A stretch of DNA of 37,947 nucleotides from Drouetiella hepatica Uher 2000/2452 (GTDB lineage: Bacteria; Cyanobacteriota; Cyanobacteriia; Elainellales; Elainellaceae): the NCBI GenBank assembly GCA_019359505.1, contig JAHHHD010000047.1, positions 1-37,947 of the forward strand, written 5' to 3'. Each line of letters opens with the position of its first letter. Within the stretch, counting starts at the first letter, position 1. The notes beneath the pieces are model-generated. The model was not told where the DNA came from and did no database searches. It saw nothing but the letters and a program-made list of their open reading frames with translations. This document shows positions 5,051 through 18,653 of this stretch, piece by piece. Both the position numbers and the translations under genes were made by a program.

Positions 5051-8002
5051 CTAGTTGAGTTTCGCCAGTAAGGTGAAGAGTTTTTCTACTATATCAGCGA
5101 CTTTGTCTTCGTTGTCTTCTTCAGCAAAAATCGCAAAGGTGGCTTCCTGGCGAACTTGACGGAGATCTTTTTCGCTGCGTTGCCAATTTGGGAAGTCAAT
5201 AAATGCCTGCCCGATTTGCTTGCTGACTTCATCGGTGTTAGGGACATTTTCATCAAGTAGCGTGCGGTAGACAAAGTAGGTCAGAGCGTTAAACCCTTTC
5301 TCAGCTTGTTCCTTCTTATGGCGTTCGTGCTCTTCGATCGCTTGGCAGAGATCAGTCAAGGCTGCTTGAGTTGTGGTTTGTCGCTCTTCATAGATTTCCT
5401 GAATCGCTTTGGCTCGCGCAGACAGCAAGATCAGGGTAGGATCGTCGCTCTCTTCGTCGGCTTTCTTTTCAATGCTTTTGATCAGGTTAATGACTTTTGT
5501 AGCTGCGCCTTTGTCTTGCTGGCTAATGGTTTCGATCGTTTGGGCATTGATTTCAATAAAATCTGTGACGTTTGGAATATCAGTGCTATCGATATGAGCC
5601 TGGACGAGGGCGTTAGTTTTGCGTTGGAATTCGCGATCGAGGTTGATGCGCTTGGTGTAAGCTTGGCGGACGACATCATAGATCGATGAAAGGGTAGCGT
5701 AGTCGTCCAAGTAGGGACGCAGAAAGGCATCGGGGGAGATGATTTCGTAGAGCATCTCGATCTCTTTGTATTCTTTGAAGAACGCTTTGCGACGGTCTGG
5801 GTCGCGGAAGTGCTCAAATAGGATATTGAGATCGCGATCGTCAAAATTGTGTTCAAGTAACTGGATATAGGGAGGAGCTTTTTCCTCCATCTTGATCTTG
5901 AAGAGGGCTTTCAGTAGTTTGATATCTTTGAGAACAGCCTCAATTTCTTTGCTGTCAAAGGCAAGAGCTTTCGACAGTCGTTTGAAAATGCCCACGTAGT
6001 CAAGTACAAAGCCGTGGGGTTTGACCATTTCCTGTGCTTCGTTTTCGTAGGGGCGATTGACGCGCATAATCGCCTGGAGCAGGGTGTGATCGCGCAAGGG
6101 CTTGTCAAGGTACATAGCATAGAGGATCGGGGCATCGAAACCTGTCAAGAGCTTCTCGGTCACGATCAGAATTTTGGGGAATTCGCCAGGTTTAGTAAAG
6201 CTTTTGCGGATTTGCTTTTCGCGTCTGGGGTCTAAATGAAAGCGTTTGAGGCGTTCGTTATCGTTGTGGTTGCCCGTGTAGACAATCTCGGAATATTCAG
6301 GGGGTAGGAGCTGGTCGAGGGCGTCTTTGTAGTAGGTGCAGGCTTCGCGATCGACTGCGACAAGAAAGGCTTTATAACCCAGAGGTTCAACATTTTGGGT
6401 GTAGTGTTCAACGACAGCCTTAGCTACTTTTTCAATGCGCTTTTCGGCTTTGAGGAAGTTCTTGAGGTTGACGGCTCGATCGAGGATTTTGTTGAGTTCG
6501 TCGATGTCGGAAATGCCTTCAGTTTCAGCTAGGGAGAGGAATTCTTGCTCTAGGACTTCGGCAGGAACCAGAAGCTGGTTGGGGGCAAGATTGTAGTAGA
6601 GGGGCAGCGTAGTTTGGTCTTCAATGCTGTCGCGCATGGAGTATTTGTGCAAATACCCTGGCTCGTCAATGGCGGCACCCTCTGCGTCCATATTGAAGGT
6701 TTTGAAGGTGCCTTTACCGTGGGCGGTTCTGTCGATCGGGGTGCCCGTGAAGCCGATGAAGGTCGCATTTTTGACGGCAGCCATTAAGAAGTTGCCCAAG
6801 TCGCCGCCCGTGCTGCGGTGGGCTTCGTCGATCAGAACGTAGATGCTAGAGCGAGGATTGATGTCGGGCTTCATGCCTCGGAATTTTTGGACGGTGGAGA
6901 CGATGATGCCGCGATAGTCGTTTTCTAGCAGCTTCTCCAGCGCTTTGATCGTATTAGCGTGCTCTACATTTTCTAACCCCAGGGCTGCCAGGTTCTTCAG
7001 CATCTGATCTTCGAGTTCGTTGCGATCGATCATCAGCAAGATCGTGGGTTTATCGCCTGCGTTAGCCTTGAACAACATTTCAGCGGACTTGATCATGGTG
7101 TAGGTTTTACCGCTGCCCTGGGTATGCCAAACGAGTCCACGAGTCTTTTGAGGATCGAGTGCTCTATCCAGTACTTTTTCGATTGCCGTAGTTTGGTGCT
7201 GTTTGAGAATGTATTTGTTAAGGTCTTCGTCTTTTTCGGCAAAAACGATGTAGTTTTTCAGCAGCCCTAACAGGTTGGGAATATCGCAGAAGGTTTTGAC
7301 TTTGGCTTCCAGGTTGCCGATCTGTTCGCTTTTCCAATTAAAAATGTTGCGCCGTACCATGTTCCAGGTGACGCCGTAGGCAAAGCCGATCGCCTCGGTG
7401 GCGGTGAAGAGCTGATAGGGGACAAGTAGCTCAGGGGTTTCGTTGTGGTAGCGGCGGAGCTGGTCAATGCCAATCGCGATTGCTTCCTCTTTATTGGCGT
7501 TTTTGCATTCGATTACCAGAATGGGGATGCCGTTGATCAGAAAGACGACATCGGCTCGATTGCCGTAATGCCCGTTATGGAAATAGAACTCTTCGGTGAC
7601 TTCATAGCGGTTGCGCCGCTGGTCTGGGGATGCGGTGAGGTCGCCGTAGTCAATCAGGTTCAGATCTAGCTCTCGATTCTCTTCCACATAGAAAAATTTG
7701 CCTTCGTTGCGGAGATACGAGAGGAAGTTGCGGTTGCCATAGATGTCGGCTTTGAAGCTGCTGAGTTGAGCAATTAGGACTCCAGCCGTTTCGGTATAGT
7801 TGGGGTTAAAGGTTTTGACTTGCTGATAGAGCACGTCATCAAAAAACAGAGAAGCTGCTTTGCAAGCTTCTTGGGGAGAACCTTTGGTCGAGAAGCCCCG
7901 CCGTTGTTGGGCTTCGGCGCGGGGAACAAACGTCCAGCCAATCTCCTCAGCGTACTTGAGGAGGCGAGCTTGAACGGTCTTGTGTTCTCCGGGTTTAGGC
8001 AT
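5051..8002 (-). CDS. hsdR: Type I restriction endonuclease, motor/nuclease subunit HsdR
   Basis: At 983 residues this is the usual size for HsdR. An N-terminal PD-(D/E)XK nuclease is visible with D151 in GNRADVVF and E165/K167 in LVIECKN. The SF2 helicase follows: Walker A HTQGSGKT (about 293-300), motif II IDEAHRS (391-397), motif III FIGFTGTPI, and RVNRPYE as motif VI. The C-terminal third is helical and probably docks onto HsdM/HsdS. HsdR uses ATP to translocate DNA from unmethylated target sites and cleaves at a distance. Its ATG is 1 bp from the stop of the DUF262 gene, so it belongs to the same operon as hsdM and hsdS although five genes lie in between. All key residues appear intact. 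Confidence 0.95.
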   Translation of the reverse strand: MPKPGEHKTVQARLLKYAEEIGWTFVPRAEAQQRRGFSTKGSPQEACKAASLFFDDVLYQQVKTFNPNYTETAGVLIAQLSSFKADIYGNRNFLSYLRNEGKFFYVEENRELDLNLIDYGDLTASPDQRRNRYEVTEEFYFHNGHYGNRADVVFLINGIPILVIECKNANKEEAIAIGIDQLRRYHNETPELLVPYQLFTATEAIGFAYGVTWNMVRRNIFNWKSEQIGNLEAKVKTFCDIPNLLGLLKNYIVFAEKDEDLNKYILKQHQTTAIEKVLDRALDPQKTRGLVWHTQGSGKTYTMIKSAEMLFKANAGDKPTILLMIDRNELEDQMLKNLAALGLENVEHANTIKALEKLLENDYRGIIVSTVQKFRGMKPDINPRSSIYVLIDEAHRSTGGDLGNFLMAAVKNATFIGFTGTPIDRTAHGKGTFKTFNMDAEGAAIDEPGYLHKYSMRDSIEDQTTLPLYYNLAPNQLLVPAEVLEQEFLSLAETEGISDIDELNKILDRAVNLKNFLKAEKRIEKVAKAVVEHYTQNVEPLGYKAFLVAVDREACTYYKDALDQLLPPEYSEIVYTGNHNDNERLKRFHLDPRREKQIRKSFTKPGEFPKILIVTEKLLTGFDAPILYAMYLDKPLRDHTLLQAIMRVNRPYENEAQEMVKPHGFVLDYVGIFKRLSKALAFDSKEIEAVLKDIKLLKALFKIKMEEKAPPYIQLLEHNFDDRDLNILFEHFRDPDRRKAFFKEYKEIEMLYEIISPDAFLRPYLDDYATLSSIYDVVRQAYTKRINLDREFQRKTNALVQAHIDSTDIPNVTDFIEINAQTIETISQQDKGAATKVINLIKSIEKKADEESDDPTLILLSARAKAIQEIYEERQTTTQAALTDLCQAIEEHERHKKEQAEKGFNALTYFVYRTLLDENVPNTDEVSKQIGQAFIDFPNWQRSEKDLRQVRQEATFAIFAEEDNEDKVADIVEKLFTLLAKLN

Positions 8003-8003
8003 G

Positions 8004-9809
8004 TTATACCTCGCTGTACAGTTCCGATGGACTCAATTGCCGACCGTCTATTAACTTGTTCACTGCTGCCATGACTAGGTCAGCCCGTTTGCGTAGGAAG
8101 GCGTCAAAATCCTGCTTGAGCTTAGTAGTCTTTTCTTCATCGGAAAGATTTTCATAGCCGCCATTTGCCAGTTCTGGGATAGGGATGAGGTGAGCTTGAA
8201 GGCGTTCCTGTACGATCGCCTCAGAAGTCCAGGTATAGCGATCTTTGAGATATTTCAGAGGGTCTTTGCGCCCAATGGTGAGATTAGTGTTGTCTTTGAT
8301 CAGCGCACAGTTTAGAGCCAAGAAGCTGGGAATCCCCGCTTCTTTAAGCAGCGCATCGGGATAGACATGGTGATAATGACGGGTTTCTATTGTTTTAGCA
8401 TCTAGCCGCTCTCCCGTAGCGAAATCCAAAGCTCCCAGGCGACAGAGCACAGCGAGAACACCTCGACCCCGAATGGTGGCACGCTTGGGCCATTCAGCAG
8501 TGAGAATTTCCTCAACTTCGACCAGGTTATGGTTGGCAAAGATGGGGACATCATCAGTGCTGGAAGGAGTACCGTCTGCCTTAATTTGATTGGTAATAAT
8601 TTTTTTGAGGGCGTTGAAATCCGCAAAGGCATGGGTGGCTGCTGAGTTTTCGTAGCGATCGGTAAAAAAGGCGCGCCAGAGATATTTTTTTAGCAGCAGT
8701 TCATCGCGACCGCGTTTATCGCCTGCATCAGGGATATTGGCATAGAGGGAGGCAATTACAGCCAGCACGGCATTGGTAGGGAGGCGCTGGGCGTCATAAA
8801 TGCCCTCGTTGTTGAGGAACTCTGCCATGTGGTTGAGACCGCGCTCTAGGGTATCCCAGTGCTCCACCATGCGCTTCTTGTCCATATTCCAGGCACCCTT
8901 CTGGTTAGGTAAATCGTCCTGAAGTAAGGCAGAGGTGGTGAGAATTAGGTCAGAGAGGGGCGCGTAGCGGGCAATGTGGGGATGGCGTTGATGGAGTTTG
9001 GTTTCTAGGTCATGGAGCGATTGACCCATGACACTTTCGACTTCGGCAACGATGATGTCGTAGGTAGACAGAGGCTTGCTGTTGGTATTCATGTTGATGA
9101 ATACGCTCAGAGCAACGGACTTGTCGGTATGGGCTGGGAGGGCAAGATAGGGCAGATTGTAGTTGGCAACACTGGCCCGCAGGTCTTTGATCTGGTCACT
9201 AACCTGTTGCCGCAACTCAAAATATCGTTGGAGTTCATCCATCGCGGAGTCGGGTGATGGCTTAGGTAAGGCTTTATTCAACCAGTCATCGATGTCGCTT
9301 TGAATGTCTTCAGGGCGCAAAAGGTGAGTGGGAATAAGACCCCGCTGCAAGCATTGATCAGGTTTATCGCACCAGAGGGGAAATCGTTCGCCAGTACTTT
9401 GCTTGATGTAGCGTCCCTTCCAATAAACGCTCAGATTGTCGCGGGATTTATCCTTAGCGTAGCTATCAAACGCCTGGATATAAATGAAATAGGCTGTCCA
9501 TTCATAGTTATTGTGGAGTACGCGCCAGAGGGCTGTAAGGCGTTGCTGTCCGTCTAGCAAATGCTCATAAACCTTATTGTGTGTTTCTGGGGCAGTTTTA
9601 AGATAGCGAGAGATAAATTTTTCTGATTCACCCACTTCGAGGATGAGGGTAATGCCCAGAGGTAAGTTTTGGATGACCGTCTGGATGAGGCTGGCAATCC
9701 GCTGCTGATCCCAGGCTTCAAACCGCTGGAAACGGGGCAGCTTGACTTCACCTCGCTGAACCTTACCGTACCAATCTCGGATATTGCGATTACGAGCTTC
9801 CACTATCAT
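8004..9809 (-). CDS. DUF262 / HNH (GmrSD-like) restriction nuclease
   Basis: The 601-residue protein has an N-terminal DUF262 (ParB-like, GmrS-type) domain with LPRFQR at 24-29 and the hallmark DGQQRLTAL starting at D86. A long helical middle follows. In the C-terminal part HYHHVYP (H480, H481) followed later by NLTIG resembles the HNH nuclease of DUF1524 (GmrD). The layout therefore matches single-chain GmrSD-type enzymes, which use NTP to cleave modified (for example glucosylated) phage DNA. Because it sits inside the hsd operon, 1 bp before hsdR, it may complement the type I system against phages with modified DNA; that is inference. An accessory role to HsdR is the alternative. The HNH assignment is less certain than DUF262. 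Confidence 0.8.
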   Translation of the reverse strand: MIVEARNRNIRDWYGKVQRGEVKLPRFQRFEAWDQQRIASLIQTVIQNLPLGITLILEVGESEKFISRYLKTAPETHNKVYEHLLDGQQRLTALWRVLHNNYEWTAYFIYIQAFDSYAKDKSRDNLSVYWKGRYIKQSTGERFPLWCDKPDQCLQRGLIPTHLLRPEDIQSDIDDWLNKALPKPSPDSAMDELQRYFELRQQVSDQIKDLRASVANYNLPYLALPAHTDKSVALSVFINMNTNSKPLSTYDIIVAEVESVMGQSLHDLETKLHQRHPHIARYAPLSDLILTTSALLQDDLPNQKGAWNMDKKRMVEHWDTLERGLNHMAEFLNNEGIYDAQRLPTNAVLAVIASLYANIPDAGDKRGRDELLLKKYLWRAFFTDRYENSAATHAFADFNALKKIITNQIKADGTPSSTDDVPIFANHNLVEVEEILTAEWPKRATIRGRGVLAVLCRLGALDFATGERLDAKTIETRHYHHVYPDALLKEAGIPSFLALNCALIKDNTNLTIGRKDPLKYLKDRYTWTSEAIVQERLQAHLIPIPELANGGYENLSDEEKTTKLKQDFDAFLRKRADLVMAAVNKLIDGRQLSPSELYSEV

Positions 9810-9859
9810 TTCCTCGGCTACGGTTGCGATGTACTACTTTTTGGATAAGCTGTCTGACG

Positions 9860-9924
9860 CTCCAGATTAGAAGCGTTGCACTCTCCAGATAAGCTAGCTT
9901 TCCCCGTTTTACTCTCCAAATTAG
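9860..9924. repeat. Three short direct repeats CTCCARATWAG in an intra-operon gap
   Basis: CTCCAGATTAG (9860-9870), CTCCAGATAAG (9883-9893) and CTCCAAATTAG (9914-9924) lie in the only sizeable gap (111 bp) inside the restriction operon. The last copy overlaps the stop of the 137-aa gene. Their role is unknown; a translational or RNA-processing element, or a recombination scar, is possible. Confidence 0.45.
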
Positions 9925-10334
9925 AAAGGCGTTGAAGGTGGAGGGATGAGTTTAGTAGCAGATGCAGCCAGTTTGAGGGCGATCGCTTTCTGGTCTTCTT
10001 TCGCAGTCGGCCACCCTTCAATATCGGCGTGATTGGGGTTATCAGGAAAGGGTTGGGCTGTCACTCGCAGGGAGTCTACCAGGCAATTCTTAGCCGGAAT
10101 ATCCGATCGTCCGTGAAGGATTCTCTGTTGTTGCGTTGCTACGTTGACCCCTGCCTGCCAAATTTCTGCTTCTGTTGCGTCGCGATGGCGGGTGACGGAC
10201 AGCTCTTGGTAAGGATGGGGGATGAACAGGTTGGGCTTTATGGTGCGATCGCTCCGAAAATGACCATTCTGCATCACGTAGCGGGCGAGTAACTCGGTCT
10301 CCTCAACAGGGGGAATATTCTCTGGATCGAGCAT
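9921..10334 (-). CDS. Uncharacterised protein (137 aa) in the restriction operon
   Basis: The product starts MLDPENIPPVEETELLARYV and contains a conserved-looking strand block KPNLFIPHPYQELSVTRHRD, then IWQAGVNVA. It ends in a helical segment and a Pro-rich tail. I have the impression of a widespread but unnamed bacterial family with the core KPxxFxPxPxxELSVTRH, but I cannot name it or give a function. No metal or nucleotide motif is certain, although the His/Arg/Asp cluster in SVTRHRD could be functional. Its ATG lies 6 bp from the stop of the 154-aa gene upstream. It appears to form a unit with that gene and with the TIGR04255-like gene, embedded in a type I restriction operon. Confidence 0.7.
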   Translation of the reverse strand: MLDPENIPPVEETELLARYVMQNGHFRSDRTIKPNLFIPHPYQELSVTRHRDATEAEIWQAGVNVATQQQRILHGRSDIPAKNCLVDSLRVTAQPFPDNPNHADIEGWPTAKEDQKAIALKLAASATKLIPPPSTPF

Positions 10335-10340
10335 GAACTT

Positions 10341-10805
10341 CTAATTCTTGGATAGAGCAACTTCCTGAATTAAGCTGAGAAGCCTTTTGGGAATTTCCCC
10401 TAGAAATGGCTCTGAGCCACGCGGGTCGCTGTTTCCCAAAAGAGCCGCGTAATAAAGGACACCTTCGGGGCTGACGCTGACTGAGATTGTCCAGTGGGGA
10501 TCGCGATACCAGTCTAGAGTCAAGTGACCATCTGGTTCTGCCCCTACAGAAGGTAAAGGAAACCCCAAAGGCAGAGCCTGAATCACAGCGTAGGCGTAGT
10601 TCAGAGTTGATTCTTTCACTGGGAACGCATCATAACCATCCCAATTAGAGGTTTCACATTCTGCCCAAGTCGCTGCCAGCTCGTCAATAGCGGGTTGCTT
10701 GCTGAAGGCTGCGGTCTGCGCGAAGTACTGCTGATTGTTTTGACTGATTTTGTCGATGTACGCCGCAGTGGAACTATTGCCTCTAGACATGATGGTTGTG
10801 GTCAT
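10341..10805 (-). CDS. Uncharacterised protein (154 aa) coupled to the TIGR04255-like gene
   Basis: The ATG overlaps the stop of the TIGR04255-like gene by 4 bp (10802-10805), which shows translational coupling. The 154-residue protein has a Ser/Thr/Gln-rich N-terminus. A segment ELAATWAECETSNWDGYDAF comes next, then strands in LTLDWYRDPHWTISVSVSP and YYAALLG. The W-D-G-Y and DWYR elements suggest a small alpha/beta fold with strands facing aromatic residues. I recognise no named family or catalytic site. Coupling to both neighbours implies that the three proteins work together, possibly as a complex; this is inference from gene arrangement only. Confidence 0.7.
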   Translation of the reverse strand: MTTTIMSRGNSSTAAYIDKISQNNQQYFAQTAAFSKQPAIDELAATWAECETSNWDGYDAFPVKESTLNYAYAVIQALPLGFPLPSVGAEPDGHLTLDWYRDPHWTISVSVSPEGVLYYAALLGNSDPRGSEPFLGEIPKRLLSLIQEVALSKN

Positions 10806-11590
10806 GGTGTGGCTCCAAATCGTGCTAGGGCAGTGTCAGTGATGCAGCTAAAGAAGACCTTATTTTTGAGCCAGCGCATTTCCTTCAATTGTTGAATCAG
10901 GGTGTCCTGATCTAATTGAAGCAGTTCAGTCGTAAAAACGTCGATATCAACAATTAGCGCCCGTCCATTAGCTGGGTCTGTCCCTTCAGGCTGAATGGTT
11001 CTGACCCAATTGATGTGATAGGGGTAGCCGGGAACCCGATAGGTATCCTGATGGAAAAAGGACTCTGTAGGAAGTTCTAGCCCTGATGGGGCGGGAGGGA
11101 CGGTGTTTAGATAAAGGGATGGCTGTTCGCCATTATCCAGAGGAATGCGGTTGATGTAGCGCACGCCTAAGCGCTGAATGACGGTTGGCTCTGCTAATTC
11201 CAGGAAAATATGCCAAAACCGGAAGGCTTCGGTTTGGAAGCTTATCCATTCTTCGTAGGGTTCCAACCGACTGAAGGCAACTCCATTAAGGGTGAACTGT
11301 GCCACATGGCGATTCTGCTCATCCTGGAGGCGAAAACCGCTCCACTGTATCCGCTGAAAGACTTCAGAAGAACCATCAGGTGCGCCTACAGCACCAATCT
11401 GGACATCTTGCTGAGGCTGAAGGATGGGATAGTCTGGTAAACGCTGGGTCAGTTCTGCTTTGAGGGCTTCAGATTCTAGCTTTTTGCCAGCATGAGCCTG
11501 CCAGTGAATCACCGCCTCAATGCTGGGGGCGGCTTTCAGGCGAGGAAATTCCTCGTTGAGATTGAGGCTGAACTTGGGCAGCGGACTCAT
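10802..11590 (-). CDS. TIGR04255-family protein (262 aa)
   Basis: The protein begins with the family-like opening in which a short leader is followed by PSIEAVIHW. It has a central Trp/Phe-rich region (EEWISFQTEAFRFWHIFLEL), then IQRLGVRYINRI, and ends in IQQLKEMRWLKNKVFFSCIT, all typical of TIGR04255, a family of about 250 residues with patchy distribution. The function of the family is unknown, and it appears in variable genomic regions. Here the gene follows hsdS by 37 bp and overlaps the next gene by 4 bp. The long gene has no signal peptide or membrane span, so a cytosolic role is likely. A place in defence is suggested only by location. Confidence 0.75.
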   Translation of the reverse strand: MSPLPKFSLNLNEEFPRLKAAPSIEAVIHWQAHAGKKLESEALKAELTQRLPDYPILQPQQDVQIGAVGAPDGSSEVFQRIQWSGFRLQDEQNRHVAQFTLNGVAFSRLEPYEEWISFQTEAFRFWHIFLELAEPTVIQRLGVRYINRIPLDNGEQPSLYLNTVPPAPSGLELPTESFFHQDTYRVPGYPYHINWVRTIQPEGTDPANGRALIVDIDVFTTELLQLDQDTLIQQLKEMRWLKNKVFFSCITDTALARFGATP

Positions 11591-11627
11591 GGCGGTTGGC
11601 TAGGGTTCTGAGTATGGATTATATCTG

Positions 11628-12932
11628 TCAGCTTGATCCCTGGATAGAACCTTGTGGGGTGATATTTTCTAGGTCATCGAAGCCAGGGAGGTCGATGTCG
11701 TGAACGCGGATTTGAGCAGTCATGAGTTGGTGGAGAAGGGTTTGAAAGAGATCTTGTAATACATCTCGCTTGCTCGCGTGAACTTCAATCTTTTTGATAA
11801 GGCTTGCAATTATCCGAATAATTTCCTTTTGTTCATCAATTGAAGACGGTAGCGGAATTTTGAAGCTTCCTAAAAATCCTAAGTTCAAGTGAGATATATG
11901 CCCTTCCATTCCAGAACTTCGTAAACGCGAATACTGACTAAGCAAATAGTAGTAGAGAAATTCAGGAATTATGGAATTACGAGGAGTAATAGCACCAGCA
12001 TTCTGCGTAATTGAAGCTGCTATATCTAGAAGGGCTACCTGCCCTCTAGTTTTACCTTGTCCATACATGGCAACTAAAACCGTACCTGGAGGAAATATTT
12101 TTAGATTGTACTTATCGACGGCTTCATCACTCACGAGAATTTCTGCTTGAGAAATTTTGGAATTAACGATTTGATTTGTTTTTATAAATGGATTATTGCC
12201 AACATAATAATCGGCGTTTTTTGTCGATGGAGTAGTACCAGTAGATAATTCACAACAAGAACTAAGTTCAACAACATCCCAACTTTCAGGAACCAGCCCG
12301 ATCGCCGTCTCTTTCTGTTTCTCTCCGTGCAGTCCTTCGGTGAAAAGCTTGTGCATCAGGGCTTTTTTCAGCTCTGTGGTGGTCTGGATGAGTTGCTCTT
12401 GTTGGGCGATCGCCCTTTGCACCGTCGAAAGCACATAAGCAATTTTCTTCTGCTCGTTTAAAGGGGGAAGCAAAATCTCTAGGGCTTTTATTTGCGCCAG
12501 TGCCAGTTTTGGTTGTGCATTCTTTGACTTTCTGGCAGTAATATTTCTTTGAACTTCAGGACTGGCGAGGTAGTACACAAGAAATTCTCTGTCTACTTCT
12601 TCTGAGTAATTCAGAACTATTCTCGCAGCATTCTCTGTCAGATTTGCTCCATCTAAACATGCGGGAATTGCGCCTACTAATCCAATAGTTCCAGCGATCG
12701 AAATGTAAACGTCTTCTTTATTTATGATGTATCTACTGATCGGACTTTGAATCTCTGGTGTTAAGTATTTAAGATTTGATGTGTCAACTGAAAAATTCTT
12801 GAAGTCTGATACACGAATGTATGGAAAAGGAGTTGGCTTATCAGAGAATTTCTCTCCTTTCTCTAAGCGCTTTCCTCCCTTGACCGCCGCCAATTCATTA
12901 ATTTGGCAAGAGTGCCATTCATTTCGATTCAT
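11628..12932 (-). CDS. hsdS: Type I restriction-modification specificity subunit HsdS
   Basis: The protein of 434 residues has two target-recognition halves. The first begins near NEWHSCQINELAAVKGGKR and ends in LPPLNEQKKIAYVLSTVQRA. The second begins VPESWDVVELSSCCELSTG and ends in LPSSIDEQKEIIRIIASL. This duplicated TRD plus coiled-coil layout is that of HsdS, which reads the bipartite target and holds two HsdM and two HsdR subunits. Its start overlaps the hsdM stop by 4 bp. The base composition of the TRD coding parts (about 11750-12300 and 12480-12850) is visibly more AT-rich than hsdM, as expected for exchangeable recognition domains. The target sequence cannot be predicted from here. 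Confidence 0.93.
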   Translation of the reverse strand: MNRNEWHSCQINELAAVKGGKRLEKGEKFSDKPTPFPYIRVSDFKNFSVDTSNLKYLTPEIQSPISRYIINKEDVYISIAGTIGLVGAIPACLDGANLTENAARIVLNYSEEVDREFLVYYLASPEVQRNITARKSKNAQPKLALAQIKALEILLPPLNEQKKIAYVLSTVQRAIAQQEQLIQTTTELKKALMHKLFTEGLHGEKQKETAIGLVPESWDVVELSSCCELSTGTTPSTKNADYYVGNNPFIKTNQIVNSKISQAEILVSDEAVDKYNLKIFPPGTVLVAMYGQGKTRGQVALLDIAASITQNAGAITPRNSIIPEFLYYYLLSQYSRLRSSGMEGHISHLNLGFLGSFKIPLPSSIDEQKEIIRIIASLIKKIEVHASKRDVLQDLFQTLLHQLMTAQIRVHDIDLPGFDDLENITPQGSIQGSS

Positions 12933-14530
12933 AGCACTACCTTTTTAAGGATAGCCATAAGCTGTTTATCTACCTTGGCGGATTCTTGTTCAATTAGTTC
13001 TAGTTCAGAAATAATTTCCGAAAGTGGTCGAAAATCTTCTTCTTCTCTCGTATGGATATATCGACTCGGCGAAATATTATAGTCATTCTTCCGAATCTCC
13101 GCCCTGTCCACAATCTGACAAAACTTCTCCTCCTCCCGCCACTCCACAAACGTCCTGGCAATCCGCTCAATCCCCACATCCGGGATAAAGTTCTTCGGGT
13201 CGCCCTTCTCAAACACCAAACTGGCATTGATCAGCAACAGCTTATCCTTCTGAGCCTGCGGCTTGTCCCGATTCAAAAACAACAAAATTCCCGGCGCACT
13301 GGTGTTATAGAACAGGTTTTCCGGTAGGTAAATCACCCCTTCGATCCAATCCTGCTCCACAAAATACTTCCGCACATCTTTTTCCTTACTGGTGCCTGCA
13401 TTCCCAGAGCCTCGTGACGCTGCGCCCGTATCCAACACCACTGCCGCCCGTCCCGTCCCATTCAAACTCGCGGCAATATGCTGCACCCAGCCCCAATCTG
13501 CCGAAGACTTGCCCGGAAAACCCGCCTCTTTGGGAAACCGATTCAGCTCATCCGCATCATAATCCGTCTCCGTAAACCAATCCTGATTCCACATCGGATT
13601 TGCCACCACCCGATCAAACTGTCGCACCCCACCTACCTGCCGAAACTTGGGCTTGCGGAACGAATCGCCAATCTCGATCTCTCCTTGCAGGTCGTGGATG
13701 ATCATGTTCATATTCGCCATCGCCCAGGTATTGGGCGTGTACTCCTGCCCATAGAGCAACAGTGGCGCATACTGCTCCTTGCCCGCCAACTGCATCCGCC
13801 CCTCCAGCTCTAGCTGACACTTAATCAGCAGCCCCGCCGACCCACAGCACGGGTCAAAAATTTCCATCCCCGGCTCTGGCTGCATAATCTTCGCCATCAC
13901 CAGCCCCACCTCCAGCGGCGTATAAAACTCCCCCGCCTTCTGTCCGCTATTTTCGGCAAACTTGCGAATCAGATACTCATAGCTGCGACCAATAATATCC
14001 GCCTCCACATCCTCCAACCCCAGCCGCTTCTCGCTGATTTTTTCAATCAGGTTGCTGAGGCGATCGTCATCCAGATCCCGCTGCCCGTGGGTGGTGGCAT
14101 TGAAATCGACGCGATCGATAATCCCCTTTAGCAGGGTGTTTTCCTTGGCAATATCTTTCAGATAGGTGGTCAGCGTCTCCCCAATTTTGTCTGTAAGCTG
14201 ACGAATCACCGACCATACAGGCTGCTCTGGATCTTCCGGCTGGAGTGGCAAATAGAAGCGCACCAGCTTCTTATCCGCCTTGACCATGCGGAACGCCTTT
14301 TCACGGGTCTTCACCTTCTTGGCGATCCGGTTCAGCTCATCGTCAAACACGTCACAGAGGCGCTTGACGAAAATCAACGGCAGAATGAAGTCCTTATATT
14401 TCGCGGCTTCCTGCGCCCCACGAATCGAGCAAGCCGCATCCCAGATCCACGACTCCATCGATTTTTCGGTGCCGCCATTAGCATCCGCTTTAGATTTGCC
14501 ATTCCGGGTTTTCTTCTGGGTTGCAGTCAT
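12929..14530 (-). CDS. hsdM: Type I restriction-modification methyltransferase subunit HsdM (N6-adenine)
   Basis: The product has 533 residues. An N-terminal helical HsdM domain (WDAACSIRGAQ onward) precedes the methyltransferase core. There, GEFYTP (200-205) is motif X, FDPCCGSAG (225-233) is the AdoMet-binding motif I, and NPMW (311-314) is the catalytic motif IV, a variant of NPPF. The protein methylates adenine at the target read by HsdS and is needed for both protection and restriction. It is the first gene of the eight-gene operon that runs to the YgjP-like gene, and hsdS overlaps it by 4 bp. The promoter should lie in 14531-14690, between it and cvkR. The N-terminal basic stretch (TATQKKTRNGKSKADANGG) is unusual but common in close homologues. 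Confidence 0.95.
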   Translation of the reverse strand: MTATQKKTRNGKSKADANGGTEKSMESWIWDAACSIRGAQEAAKYKDFILPLIFVKRLCDVFDDELNRIAKKVKTREKAFRMVKADKKLVRFYLPLQPEDPEQPVWSVIRQLTDKIGETLTTYLKDIAKENTLLKGIIDRVDFNATTHGQRDLDDDRLSNLIEKISEKRLGLEDVEADIIGRSYEYLIRKFAENSGQKAGEFYTPLEVGLVMAKIMQPEPGMEIFDPCCGSAGLLIKCQLELEGRMQLAGKEQYAPLLLYGQEYTPNTWAMANMNMIIHDLQGEIEIGDSFRKPKFRQVGGVRQFDRVVANPMWNQDWFTETDYDADELNRFPKEAGFPGKSSADWGWVQHIAASLNGTGRAAVVLDTGAASRGSGNAGTSKEKDVRKYFVEQDWIEGVIYLPENLFYNTSAPGILLFLNRDKPQAQKDKLLLINASLVFEKGDPKNFIPDVGIERIARTFVEWREEEKFCQIVDRAEIRKNDYNISPSRYIHTREEEDFRPLSEIISELELIEQESAKVDKQLMAILKKVVL

Positions 14531-14689: not shown

Positions 14690-15154
14690 CTAGGCAGAGA
14701 GCGATCGCCTAAATTTCTTTAAGTTCTCAATCAATCGCGATCGCACCTTATCGCTTCTAAAAGGAACCACGGCTTGCTCCTGACAAAGGGCTGTAAACGC
14801 CGCTTTCTGATCAAACGCTGTTAGCTCCAACTGTTGCTGATTCGAACAGACTGATAGAAACATCAACTGTTTTACCTCTTTCGGTTTCACCGATGCTTCA
14901 AACAACCAAGGTTCGCTAGCTCTCAACGTCTCCAGCGCTTTGCAACAGAGTTCAAAATTTAGCCCGATCGACAGCAAATATTCCATCACCGTCAGCGCCA
15001 GCAGATCGGAGACAGCATAGTAAACGTTTCGCCCCTTGCCAGTCGCGTTAACTGTAGGTACTACAACCCCTCTCTCCCGCCAATACTGCAATTGCCGCCG
15101 AGAGCATCCAGTAATTTCGGCAGCTTCTGTACTTGTAAAGAACTTCTCTTCCAT
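14690..15154 (-). CDS. cvkR: CvkR, MerR-type repressor of the V-K CAST
   Basis: From the ATG at 15152-15154 the protein is 154 residues. In-frame starts at 15163 and 15190 are possible, but MEEKFFTSTEAAEITGC matches the known family start. Residues about 5-45 are a MerR winged helix-turn-helix (TSTEAAEITGCSRRQLQYWR, then VVVPTVNATGKGRN as wing). The C-terminal part is a small helical dimerisation region without the metal-binding cysteines of classical MerR proteins. In characterised V-K CASTs this divergently encoded protein binds the cas12k promoter region and represses cas12k. Here it is also divergent from cas12k, with a matching operator at 15202-15216. It lies next to hsdM, on the boundary between transposition module and cargo. 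Confidence 0.9.
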   Translation of the reverse strand: MEEKFFTSTEAAEITGCSRRQLQYWRERGVVVPTVNATGKGRNVYYAVSDLLALTVMEYLLSIGLNFELCCKALETLRASEPWLFEASVKPKEVKQLMFLSVCSNQQQLELTAFDQKAAFTALCQEQAVVPFRSDKVRSRLIENLKKFRRSLSA

Positions 15155-15201
15155 AAAGTCCATCGTACAAAAACCTGTCAAAAAACACATCTACCCTCTT
15201 G

Positions 15202-15216
15202 AAAACATTATGTGTT
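15202..15216. promoter_or_regulatory. CvkR operator between cvkR and cas12k
   Basis: AAAACATTATGTGTT is a complete fit to the CvkR motif AnnACATnATGTnnT, recalled from work on the Anabaena CAST. A second inverted pair, AACACAT at 15184-15190 and ATGTGTT at 15210-15216, flanks it. The site lies 43 bp before the cas12k ATG, over the likely promoter (TTGAAA at 15199 and TATAGT at 15217 are nearby, but with a short spacer, so exact promoter elements are unsure). Confidence 0.8.
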
Positions 15217-15258
15217 TATAGTACTCTTGTTCCATCGACTCAACTGCAAGAGAAGTTT

Positions 15259-17166
15259 ATGAGTCAAAGTACCATCCAGTGCCAGTTAACAGCTAACGAA
15301 GCCACTCGGTCTTATCTCTGGGCGTTGATGGCAGAGAAAAATACTCCTCTGATCAACGAACTCATCGGGCAAGTCACCAAACACTCTGACTTTGAAACCT
15401 GGAAGCTTAAAGGCAAAATTCCCTCCAGTGTGGTTAGCCAACTCTGTCAGCCCCTCAAAACTGATCCGCGTTTCATAGGTCAACCTGCCCGGTTTTACAC
15501 ATCAGCCACTCATGTCGTAGATTACACCTTCAAATCCTGGCTAGCGCTGCAAAAACGCTTAAGCGATACATTACAGCGAAAAATTCGCTGGTCAGAAATG
15601 CTCAAAAGTGATCCAGAGCTAGTTGAACTAAGCGGATGTAATTTAGCAACCATTCGAGCTAAAGCTGCTGAAATTCTCGCGGTTGCTACAAACAAATCTC
15701 AGCAGGGAGGGACTGAACCTTCTCAGAAAACTAGGAAATCCAAGCAGCCCAAAGATTCTGCTCCTGGTCGAACAGTGTCCAGCTTGTTGTTTGAAGCTCA
15801 CCGCAACACCCAAGACATTCTCAGCCAATGTGCCATTTGCTATCTGCTTAAAAATAGCTGTAAAGTTAGCGATCGCGAAGAAGATCCCGACAAGTTTGCC
15901 AAGCGTCGGCGCAAGGTCGAGATTCAAATTCAACGGCTCCAAGACCAAATTGAAGGGCGACTGCCTAAAGGACGCGATCTAACAGGTCAAAGTTGGCTCA
16001 ATACTTTGGCGATCGCCACCTCAACGGTTCCTGTAGATAATGCAGAAGCCAAACGCTGGCAAGACAAACTTTTGACCCAATCTACCTCTTTGCCTTTCCC
16101 TGTCTCCTTTGAAACGAATGAAGACTTGGTGTGGTCAAACAATCAGAAGGGGCGTATCTCTGTTCGCCTCAACGGGTTAGGTGAGCATACCTTCCAGATT
16201 GCCTGCGATCAACGACAGCTTCCCTGGTTCAAGCGCTTTCTAGAAGACCAGCAAACTAAACGAGAGGGCAAAAATCAGCATTCCAGCGCTTTGTTTGCCT
16301 TGCGCTCTGGTCGCCTCGCTTGGCAGGAAGGCAAGGAGAAGGGTGAACCTTGGAAAGCAAATCGTTTAATCCTCTATTGCACCGTCGATACTCGCTTATG
16401 GACGGCTGAAGGCACAGAACAGGTTCGTAACGAAAAGGCAATAGAAATTGCCCAAACCCTCACTCGCATGAAGGAAAAGGAAGGTCTGTCACAGACTCAA
16501 CAAGACTATATCAAACGATTAGATTCCAGCTTGACTCGGATCAATAGCCCTTTCGATCGCCCCAGTCAATCTCTCTATCAACCTCTGCCTCATATCCTGG
16601 TTGGCATTTGTTTGGGATTAGAACAGCCTGCCACAGTTGTTGTTCTAGATATCAACACTAATCAAGTTCTAACCCACCGAACTGTCCGGCAACTGCTCGG
16701 CAGAAATTATGCCCTCCTCCTGAAACGGCGTCGCGAACAGCAGCGAACAGCCCACCAGCGTCACAAAGCTCAAAAACGAGATGCTCCTCGTTCACTGGGT
16801 GAGTCCGAATTAGGGCAATATGTCGATCGACTTTTGGCGAAAGCAACGGTAGAACTGGCTAGAACCCACAGAGCTAGCAGTATCGTCGTCCCCAAGTTAG
16901 GCGATATGCGGGAAATTGTTCAAAGCGAAATTCAAGCCAAGGCAGAGCAAAAAATTCCAGGTTCCATTGAAGCACAGCAAAAGTATGCCAAGCAGTATCG
17001 AATCAATGTTCATCGCTGGAGTTACAGCCGACTAATTGAAAGTATTCGTGCCCAAGCGGCTAAAGATGGAATTGCGCTTGAGGAAGGACGGCAACCCCTG
17101 CAAGGAAGCTTAGAAGAAAGAGCAAAAGGAGTGGCGATCGCAGCCTATCAATCCCGTAAAAAGTAA
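15259..17166 (+). CDS. cas12k: Cas12k, nuclease-inactive type V-K effector
   Basis: I start at ATG 15259, after an AAGAGAAG ribosome-binding site; the frame is open further upstream. The 635 residues match the normal length of Cas12k, and the N-terminus (MSQSTIQCQL, then ...NTPLINELIGQV...) and the block SVVSQLCQPLKTDPRF are nearly those of the Scytonema protein. The RuvC catalytic acids are missing: C451 stands in GICLGL where Asp is expected, P545 stands in VVPKLG where Glu is expected, and the C-terminal ERAKGVAIAAY segment lacks the last Asp. Cas12k with crRNA and tracrRNA therefore binds but does not cut its target, and recruits TniQ, TnsC and TnsB to insert the transposon. It is divergent from cvkR and precedes its tracrRNA. 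Confidence 0.97.
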   Translation: MSQSTIQCQLTANEATRSYLWALMAEKNTPLINELIGQVTKHSDFETWKLKGKIPSSVVSQLCQPLKTDPRFIGQPARFYTSATHVVDYTFKSWLALQKRLSDTLQRKIRWSEMLKSDPELVELSGCNLATIRAKAAEILAVATNKSQQGGTEPSQKTRKSKQPKDSAPGRTVSSLLFEAHRNTQDILSQCAICYLLKNSCKVSDREEDPDKFAKRRRKVEIQIQRLQDQIEGRLPKGRDLTGQSWLNTLAIATSTVPVDNAEAKRWQDKLLTQSTSLPFPVSFETNEDLVWSNNQKGRISVRLNGLGEHTFQIACDQRQLPWFKRFLEDQQTKREGKNQHSSALFALRSGRLAWQEGKEKGEPWKANRLILYCTVDTRLWTAEGTEQVRNEKAIEIAQTLTRMKEKEGLSQTQQDYIKRLDSSLTRINSPFDRPSQSLYQPLPHILVGICLGLEQPATVVVLDINTNQVLTHRTVRQLLGRNYALLLKRRREQQRTAHQRHKAQKRDAPRSLGESELGQYVDRLLAKATVELARTHRASSIVVPKLGDMREIVQSEIQAKAEQKIPGSIEAQQKYAKQYRINVHRWSYSRLIESIRAQAAKDGIALEEGRQPLQGSLEERAKGVAIAAYQSRKK

Positions 17167-17204
17167 ATGGGATTGCTTCAAAACATTTGCACCTTGAAAA
17201 CCTG

Positions 17205-17445
17205 AATATGTAATAGCGCAGCCGTTCATGTTGTTTACAGCCTCTGAACTGTAATGGGTTAGTTTGACTGTTGGAAGACAGTCGTGCTTTCTGACCCTGG
17301 TAGCTGCTCACCCCGATGCTGCTGTCTCTTGAGACAGGATAGGTGCGCTCCCAGCAATAAGGGCGCGGATGTACCGCTGTAGTGGCTACCGAACCACCCC
17401 CGATCAAGGGGGAACCCGCTTCCATTCTTCATTTCAACCATTGGG
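17205..17445 (+). ncRNA. V-K tracrRNA
   Basis: The 38 bp after cas12k lead into a segment closely resembling the known Cas12k tracrRNA: TAATAGCGCAGCCGTTCATG (17211), TAGTTTGACTGT, CTTTCTGACCCTGGTAGCTG, the TAGGTGCGCTCCCAGCAATA region and the final hairpin ACCCCCGATCAAGGGGG (17395-17411). After that hairpin, AACCCGCTT (17413-17421) and TTTCAACC (17432-17439) are anti-repeat candidates. The ends are approximate, set by resemblance rather than mapping. The RNA is needed for crRNA loading and serves as scaffold for Cas12k and the transposition proteins. It may be processed from a longer transcript, because 180 bp separate it from the first repeat. Confidence 0.88.
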
Positions 17446-17622
17446 AAACCGCAAATAATTTTGTGTGTTCCGCGCAACTTGGGAAACTCGTATGGTGATT
17501 GGTTTTGACCGTTCAACTAACAATGAGTTTCCCGAAAGAAATGGTTTCGAGAGGGACAGGTAACGTGAACCGCGCAAATAGCTCCTGATACTACTGATAA
17601 AAGGTTGTTTCAGAGGGGCGCT

Positions 17623-18311
17623 GTCGCAATCGCCTGTCCGAATTGGGGCAGGTTGAAAGCTATATGGCTGTTACAACTCCAAACACGATCGCTTGTCGCA
17701 ATCGCCTGTCCGAATTGGGGCAGGTTGAAAGCACAAGGTTTGCCTCTATCTAATCGTACGGAGTTCGTCGCAATCGCCTGTCCGAATTGGGGCAGGTTGA
17801 AAGGATCCTCCCGCGTATGGTACTGGGGATGTTGATAAGTCGCAATCGCCTGTCCGAATTGGGGCAGGTTGAAAGCTTTAGCGATGTCTCCGATATCTTC
17901 AATCCCTTGAAGTCGCAATCGCCTGTCCGAATTGGGGCAGGTTGAAAGATAGGCGGCGACCTCTTTAGCAATGTTGCGAACCGTCGCAATCGCCTGTCCG
18001 AATTGGGGCAGGTTGAAAGCATCCCAATGATTCCAAATTTGAGCGATAGCCGTGTCGCAATCGCCTGTCCGAATTGGGGCAGGTTGAAAGGTTGCAATTC
18101 GGCTCTAGTCGAAAGCGATCGCGATCGCGTCGCAATCGCCTGTCCGAATTGGGGCAGGTTGAAAGGACAGGAGAAGCTTAGAATCCCGAATAGGCACAAG
18201 CGTTACAATCGCCTGTCCGAATTGGGGCAGGTTGAAAGGTATCTGACAGCCAATTTCTAACTCTTGAAGGGGTGGTCGCAATCGCCCGTCCGAATTGGAG
18301 CAGGTTGAAAG
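17623..18311 (+). CRISPR. Type V-K CRISPR array: ten 37-bp repeats, nine spacers
   Basis: Repeats of 37 bp begin GTCGCAATCGCCTGTCCG and end GGGGCAGGTTGAAAG. They lie at 17623, 17695, 17767, 17839, 17912, 17983, 18054, 18129, 18202 and 18275. The first eight are identical. The ninth has GTTACAATCG at its start, and the tenth has CCCGTCC and GGAG changes, so decay increases toward the transposon end. Spacers are 34-38 nt. A tenth spacer-like stretch (18312-18346) leads to a decayed repeat at 18347. Spacer 7 (18091-18128) contains overlapping HIP1 motifs, so it probably derives from cyanobacterial DNA. No cas1 or cas2 is nearby, as usual for this type. The leader side should be at the tracrRNA. 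Confidence 0.98.
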
Positions 18312-18346
18312 CAGCCTGCAAACCGAGATGGCGAAGGCGACAACTG

Positions 18347-18382
18347 GTCGCGAGCGCCTATTCTAATCGAGAAAGTTGGAAG
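18347..18382 (+). repeat. Decayed eleventh CRISPR repeat
   Basis: GTCGCGAGCGCCTATTCTAA and the ending GTTGGAAG follow the array repeat with many substitutions and one missing base. Its position, directly after a spacer-length interval, shows common origin with the array. Processing to a crRNA seems unlikely because the GGCAGGTT part is lost. Confidence 0.7.
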
Positions 18383-18420
18383 CCCTTAGCTTCTCAGATC
18401 GAGGAAGTTTGATTTAATTA

Positions 18421-18453
18421 AAAAGCGGGTTGAAAGAGAGCACCACGTTGACA
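18421..18453 (+). ncRNA. Delocalised homing crRNA: half-repeat plus 17-nt tRNA-Val spacer
   Basis: AAAAGCGGGTTGAAAG (18421-18436) is a partial repeat sharing GGTTGAAAG with the array repeat. It is followed by AGAGCACCACGTTGACA (18437-18453), which equals 17 nt of the adjacent tRNA-Val gene; the match ends at 18454. V-K CASTs are known to carry such short, separate spacers for insertion near tRNA genes. The repeat part AAGCGGGTT is fully complementary to tracrRNA 17413-17421 (AACCCGCTT), while the array repeat has a mismatch and two wobbles there. It therefore looks like a functional guide kept apart from the array. Transcription from upstream array promoters is assumed. Confidence 0.9.
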
Positions 18454-18460
18454 CTCTAGA

Positions 18461-18571
18461 TGACACTAATTTGTCACTAGCAATTTAATGACACTAATTT
18501 GTCCAGATGACATTAAAGAGTCACCGACGACACTAATCTGTCACCGATGACATTTAATTAGTCACTGTACA
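18461..18571 (+). repeat. CAST terminal end with five TnsB-type binding sites
   Basis: Five copies of the form TGACACTAATTTGTCA lie at 18461, 18489, 18508, 18528 and 18548, with spacings of 28, 19, 20 and 20 bp. The element ends in TGTACA at 18566-18571. The inner order and the closing AATTAGTCACTGTACA resemble the PAM-proximal end of known V-K CASTs that also carries the homing spacer. The five bases after the end (ACAAC, 18572-18576) would be the target-site duplication if the other end shows the same. Confidence 0.9.
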
Positions 18572-18579
18572 ACAACTTA

Positions 18580-18653
18580 TGGACACAACTGGACTCGAAC
18601 CAGTGACCCCCACGATGTCAACGTGGTGCTCTAACCAACTGAGCTATGCGTCC
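18580..18653 (-). tRNA. tRNA-Val (anticodon GAC)
   Basis: Read on the minus strand, a 7-bp acceptor stem (GGACGCA with TGTGTCC), a D arm with AGTTGGTTA, anticodon stem CCACG/CGTGG with loop TTGACAT (anticodon GAC), and T arm ACTGG-TTCGAGT-CCAGT fold normally. The discriminator is A and CCA is not encoded. The gene is intact and serves as the CAST target, because insertion occurred 8 bp beyond its 3' end. Confidence 0.97.
18616..18636 (-). other. CAST homing protospacer and GGTT PAM within tRNA-Val
   Basis: On the minus strand GGTT (18636-18633) precedes AGAGCACCACGTTGACA (18632-18616), the exact copy of the homing spacer. The transposon end at 18571 is 61 bp from the PAM, within the usual 60-66 bp of Cas12k-guided insertion. 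After insertion the target stays intact, so guide and target now lie about 180 bp apart. Confidence 0.92.

Follow-up and report, generated by a model that had tools for sequence, protein, structure and literature searches.

Which of its guides does the tracrRNA of a type V-K CRISPR-associated transposon (CAST) fit best, those of its own array or the single guide that leads the element home? The question is raised by the window, a stretch of 37,947 nucleotides from Drouetiella hepatica Uher 2000/2452 that makes up a whole contig (JAHHHD010000047.1) and in which the array side of such an element adjoins a tRNA-Val gene (Table 1). The gene for a MerR-type regulator stands next to cas12k, the position described for CvkR in PMC9938897, and the tracrRNA lies between cas12k and the array, where its conserved letters and terminal stem are present. 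Its ends are approximate, drawn from homology and from the start site that the same source reports for Anabaena 7120, 35 nt after cas12k (PMC9938897). The spacer behind the homing half-repeat (R*) matches tRNA-Val with 0 mismatches beside the PAM GGTT and is therefore a homing guide. Compared with the V-K layout published in PMC9938897, the window shows no departure: Cas12k, the MerR neighbour, tracrRNA, array, truncated repeat and a tRNA target with a GTN PAM are all in place, and the distance from the PAM to the transposon end falls inside the 46-82 nt reported there. At gathering scores, Rfam models found nothing but the tRNA in the window, and profiles found no TnsB, TnsC or TniQ among the 16 different window ORFs scanned; one TniQ match lies at the start of contig C24, a match that does not by itself establish a link to the window element. 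The window contig seems to start within the transposon. Its cargo on the minus strand (5051-14530) comprises the type I restriction-modification genes HsdR, HsdS and HsdM with a GmrSD-like gene between them, and weak TIR-type matches, far under their cut-offs, occur at 523-2619.

Table 1. Features of the window and loci with a tracrRNA joined to the homing half-repeat; positions are those of the window unless another locus is named.
Feature	Position	Strand	Basis or remark
MerR-type regulator gene, CvkR-like by position	14690..15190	-	Pfam MerR_1, 1.1e-14; divergent from cas12k
cas12k	15199..17166	+	NCBIfam NF038191, E 8.6e-281
tracrRNA, approximate ends	17200..17424	+	homology and start-site distance reported for Anabaena 7120
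Terminal stem CCCCC/GGGGG	17397-17401 / 17408-17412		
Anti-repeat AACCCGCTT	17413..17421	+	directly 3′ of terminal stem 17397-17412
CRISPR array	17623..18311	+	ten 37-nt repeats, 8 of them exact and 2 variant; hairpins predicted
Decayed terminal repeat	18347..18382	+	between array and homing half-repeat; read by eye
Homing half-repeat (R*), AAGCGGGTT + GAAAG	18423..18436	+	GAAAG at 18432-18436
Homing spacer AGAGCACCACGTTGACA	18437..18453	+	17 nt
Array-side transposon end	18454..18571	.	several GACACTAATTTGTCAC-like motifs; last letters TGTACA (18566-18571)
tRNA-Val	18580-18653	-	
Protospacer in tRNA-Val	18616..18632	-	PAM 18633-18636; ~61 nt from transposon end
Fused locus L075	11852-13150		after cas12k
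Fused locus L089	2595-3900		after cas12k
Other fused loci: L206, L208, L210, L217, L222, L227, L228, L244, L245, L247, L251, L252			
Target of L217	2242-2258		inside tRNA gene; placed by hand
Target of L227	2203-2219		inside tRNA gene; placed by hand

A preliminary description of this DNA had held that AACCCGCTT in the tracrRNA is fully complementary to the homing half-repeat and that the array repeat gives a mismatch and two wobble pairs in the same place. Both statements proved correct. AACCCGCTT sits exactly where it had been located, right after the terminal stem, and forms nine unbroken Watson-Crick pairs with the homing half-repeat in one register, whereas the array repeat in that register leaves a C.A mismatch at position 5 and two G.U pairs at positions 8 and 9. 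The sequence AAGCGGGTT is indeed present in the homing half-repeat, but it occupies 18423-18431, one base upstream of the 18424-18432 first given, and at position 10 the array repeat pairs again, C with G, which the earlier list had missed. Each strand of the window carries a single copy of AAGCGGGTT, and the one on the minus strand is the anti-repeat. For an anti-repeat of 12 nt the duplex energy is -14.1 kcal/mol with the homing repeat and -9.6 kcal/mol with the array repeat. This better pairing of the homing repeat is confirmed and is not unique to the window, which falls in a small group of loci with the array mismatch at position 5, not 6.

Could the array repeats find an equally stable partner elsewhere in the tracrRNA, the case that would have undone the original claim? 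If the own folds of the RNAs are ignored, the full 37-nt array repeat does have a duplex of -30.9 elsewhere in the tracrRNA, compared with -18.8 for the homing stretch of 37 nt. Once own folds are counted, the homing guide in the window has a net energy of -14.6, and the ten array guides lie between -8.2 and 0.0. When trimmed guides were co-folded with the tracrRNA, the homing guide reached -12.3 and the array guides ranged from -13.5 to -1.3 (mean -7.5), nine of the ten being weaker than the homing guide and the first one stronger (-13.5). An exact downstream complement of at least 8 bases to the 3′ end of the array repeat was found in the window only, that is, in one of the 103 loci described below, and there the trimmed array guide pairs with -10.4, more weakly than the homing guide does at the anti-repeat (-13.8). 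The objection is weakened by these results but retains some force. As to TTTCAACC, just 3′ of the window anti-repeat, it pairs with either guide and was rejected as a second anti-repeat, because across the loci such downstream complements do not exceed those of shuffled sequence in length (mean 4.34 vs 4.26).

The family-wide comparison rests on a panel of 103 V-K loci with an anti-repeat, an array and a target-validated homing spacer, divided into 51 discovery and 52 held-out loci. Loci were drawn from the best 80 of 129 relatives in genomes, from viral contigs, which yielded the single locus L031, and from further genomes. The 80 relatives, the window and L031 make up the 82 loci examined as the first set; 53 of these had an anti-repeat, at least two repeats and a validated homing spacer, and removal of two loci with fused guides (L075 and L089) left 51. 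The second set started with 151 loci (L112-L262), of which 52 were kept: 47 duplicated loci of the first set, 23 lacked an anti-repeat in this register, 12 had fused guides, 11 lacked a validated homing spacer and 6 had no array. As homing spacers we accepted 17 nt following a TTGAAAG-like handle with a nearby downstream match on the opposite strand, at most two mismatches and an NGTN PAM; the distance filter differed slightly between the sets (120-800 vs 100-1000). The handle, which was allowed up to two mismatches to TTGAAAG, covers duplex positions 1 and 2, and beyond it the rule is blind to tracrRNA pairing. In L239 the supposed homing repeat is identical to the array repeat of that locus and probably represents an array unit; the locus was retained in the counts. 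Many loci come from few clades, and the 103 loci reduce to 86 unique combinations.

Across the panel the homing repeat pairs better with the anti-repeat than the array repeat does, in the held-out set as well. Watson-Crick pairs are more numerous with the homing repeat in 82 of the 103 loci, fewer in 3 and equal in 18; counted over positions 1-10, the corresponding figures are 39, 3 and 9 among the 51 discovery loci and 43, 0 and 9 among the 52 held-out loci. Duplex energy favours the homing repeat in 86 of the 103 loci and disfavours it in 14. The difference turns on position 6, which forms a pair in 93 homing repeats but in 21 array repeats of the 103 loci; positions 1-7 are all paired in 87/103 vs 15/103. 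Guides carrying 14 nt of repeat gave a similar picture, the homing guide being better in 80 loci and worse in 17 against the anti-repeat only, and better in 76 and worse in 21 against the tail that starts at the anti-repeat and extends 60 nt beyond it. The rule holds often but not always, because 15 of the 103 loci have fewer homing pairs or a weaker homing duplex (L051, L082, L042, L032, L034, L039, L044, L069, L038, L077, L126, L230, L253, L258 and L262) and because a subclass with long tracrRNAs behaves otherwise. In four of the exceptions (L032, L039, L044 and L069) positions 1-9 are fully matched by the array repeat and not by R*. Ten loci of the long-tracrRNA subclass were tried and the tail was located in six, where the array duplex is slightly stronger than the homing duplex (-14.5 vs -13.3 in five, -12.4 vs -12.0 in one). 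L191-L203 have a much longer tracrRNA and another pairing register, and in those of them that were read the tail has no terminal stem of the usual kind.

Pairing is one side of the comparison; the other is the accessibility of the segment that pairs. Array repeats are predicted to fold on themselves with a mean of -14.9 kcal/mol, vs -2.9 kcal/mol for the homing stretch, and opening the pairing segment is predicted to cost 11.5 in the array repeat and 4.8 in the homing repeat. The predicted array hairpins bury the pairing segment, which the 5′-truncated homing repeat mostly does not, and the sum of duplex and opening energies favours homing in 101 of the 103 loci. These are predictions for short RNAs, and trimming of the array guide removes its hairpin. 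Drift of the array repeat, which had been offered as a possible origin of its poorer fit, is not favoured as the main cause: array repeats remain self-complementary hairpins, and their pairing at position 6 lies below the shuffled level.

Is the match between R* and the anti-repeat then maintained locus by locus? When partners were shuffled 5000 times among the 86 unique combinations, homing repeats fully paired at positions 1-7 in 31 combinations on average and 47 at most, compared with 70 observed, and chance is ruled out because this count exceeds those of all shuffles; at position 6 the observed 76/86 likewise lies above the shuffled maximum of 54/86. Array repeats behave in the opposite way. 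Their full pairing at positions 1-7, seen in 15/86, rises to 23 on shuffling (4998 of 5000 shuffles give at least the 15 observed), and pairing of position 6 with the own anti-repeat, 21/86, compares with a shuffled mean of 28.6 and is reached by 4982 of 5000 shuffles, a low value that rests on few independent events. Array repeats fit their own anti-repeats worse than those of others chiefly because A-type anti-repeats often accompany an array C and T-type ones an array T. Shuffles ignore relatedness, for which we accounted with pairs taken from a tree of the tracrRNA and the cas12k end, giving 25 independent pairs with 34 anti-repeat changes. At these changes the homing repeat was compensated in 19 cases, stayed paired without change in 10 and was broken in 5, whereas the array repeat was compensated in 4, stayed paired without change, by wobble, in 21 and was broken in 9. 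Position 6 differs in only 7 independent pairs, being paired on both sides in 5 for homing and in 2 for the array, too few for a separate claim on the array mismatch. This family-wide covariation, the check that the preliminary description had named, supports the assignment of 17413-17421 as the anti-repeat, with which the homing half-repeat co-evolves.

A second arrangement brings R* and tracrRNA still closer. In 14 loci, spread over 13 genomes and 4 families, a copy of the tracrRNA continues directly into the homing half-repeat and spacer as one stretch; these were read by eye and replace a loose motif count of 26 that included false positives. L075 (Prochloraceae cyanobacterium MO_167.B51) and L089 (Xenococcus sp. 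MO_188.B8) carry, behind the array, another tracrRNA of full length that is joined to R*. The spacers have a target with an NGTN PAM in 12 of the 14 loci, each of the 12 lying inside a tRNA gene. The fused tracrRNA copy pairs better with R* than the array tracrRNA does in 10 of the 11 loci with two copies and equally well in L252; in L222, L228 and L251 the only tracrRNA is the one joined to R*, and the stretch fetched for them yielded no array. Perfectly complementary 7-base arms with a 3-base loop occur in L208, L210 and L227. Folding of the isolated 3′ segment predicts the arm hairpin in 8 of the 14 (L210, L217, L222, L228, L244, L245, L247 and L251) and another fold in L206, L208, L227, L243, L246 and L252, despite the perfect arms of L208 and L227. 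Judged from sequence, the fused loci look like natural single-guide RNAs. Cas12k is engineered with a single-guide RNA in which tracrRNA and the 3′ part of the repeat are connected by a short loop, and the 14 loci look like natural versions of it with a homing spacer. Another natural RNA that unites tracrRNA and guide is the long-form tracrRNA of type II-A systems, which represses cas genes; unlike there, the duplicated tracrRNA of the fused loci precedes a homing spacer that targets a tRNA gene. The fused tracrRNA copies form three groups, with mixed support between groups in a tree built without L251, and these groups suggest that the fusion of tracrRNA and R* arose two or three times.

What might this difference in fit do for the transposon? 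On balance we favour a reading in which the window holds a V-K CAST that homed into tRNA-Val, with its array side visible, and in which the co-evolved R* makes homing the default over array-directed insertion, tracrRNA fusion being an alternative means. The homing guide is a 5′-truncated repeat in which, as the covariation shows, selection keeps an uninterrupted complement of the anti-repeat; array repeats are full-length, mostly hairpins and, in most loci of the panel, mismatched to the anti-repeat, mainly at position 6 (position 5 in the window). Because an unbroken, open homing repeat is set against a hairpin or mismatched array repeat, the homing guide should have an advantage over array guides both in annealing to the tracrRNA and in loading Cas12k, and array-directed insertion would be left as a weaker pathway. 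In several lineages a tracrRNA duplicated and joined to R* may have served the same end, if these RNAs are expressed and function as we infer. It is plausible that fit to the tracrRNA ranks homing above spacer-directed insertion, some lineages having the opposite order. For the more general statement, that V-K guides are graded by this fit, with array repeats hidden or mismatched, R* tracking the anti-repeat and natural single guides freeing homing from the array tracrRNA, we see about as much for as against.

The main rival predicts the same letters with no ranking role. According to this explanation constraint on R* is relaxed: the fit of the array repeat is compromised because it also serves the machinery that inserts and cuts spacers, and the homing repeat answers to the tracrRNA alone. 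We take it seriously as a possibility, though we would not choose it. Array hairpins do persist while anti-repeats change, array position 6 is paired within its own predicted hairpin in 56/103 loci, and the 21 of 34 anti-repeat changes that unchanged array letters tolerate by wobble agree with it as well. It accounts less easily for the loci with anti-repeat AACCCACC, in 28 of 30 of which array position 6 is a C, unable to pair with the A and kept though unpaired in most of the predicted hairpins (L061 is an exception); the fused guides, too, suggest selection for a tracrRNA of homing's own. Alternatively, a perfect duplex or a truncated repeat might let the homing guide mature without the array nuclease, complementarity then meaning stability and not rank. 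R* has about the length that a trimmed repeat would have, and PMC9938897 reports for Anabaena 7120 a joint precursor of tracrRNA and array, with cleavage as a later step; the array mismatch in most loci is left unexplained by such a role in processing, which we consider unlikely. That the matching half-repeat is an accident retained by kinship is very improbable, for all the loci that come from few clades and reduce to 86 combinations, given 19 compensated changes in 25 independent pairs, shuffles that stay at or below 47/86 vs 70 (positions 1-7) and 54/86 vs 76 (position 6), and held-out loci that give the same result.

How does the preferred reading, homing as the default through tracrRNA fit, relate to what is known of these elements? 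Saito 2021 and Hsieh & Peters 2021 are said to have described V-K CASTs with a truncated repeat (R*) and a 17-nt anchor spacer, and Petassi 2020 reportedly described atypical (categorised) guide RNAs of type I-F3. Both the truncated homing repeat with its short spacer and the idea of guide categorisation by V-K elements are established (PMC11406308, PMC9938897). Type I-F3 resembles V-K in that a distinct repeat class singles out the homing guide, which in I-F3 is reported to be hyperactive; in that system the diverged repeat is said to be recognised by TniQ and the effector complex (PMC11406308), whereas the reader that we propose for V-K is pairing with the tracrRNA. Co-evolution of homing repeat and anti-repeat and the hairpin contrast are absent from the published V-K description in the part of PMC9938897 compared. 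Neither the pairing rule nor a natural Cas12k single guide appears in the portions covered of PMC9938897, PMC11406308, PMC12719977, PMC8649781, PMC11656645 and PMC10293859. Natural V-K insertions are nearly always explained by the homing guide, according to PMC11406308, and fit to the tracrRNA is a candidate reason, at the level of base pairs, for this dominance in natural genomes. For the design of RNAs for CAST tools the natural homing guide looks preferable to the array repeat as a template and may bring an improvement, and single guides have seemingly evolved in nature more than once. In L077, R* lies about 75 nt after the anti-repeat, close behind the tracrRNA instead of behind the array.
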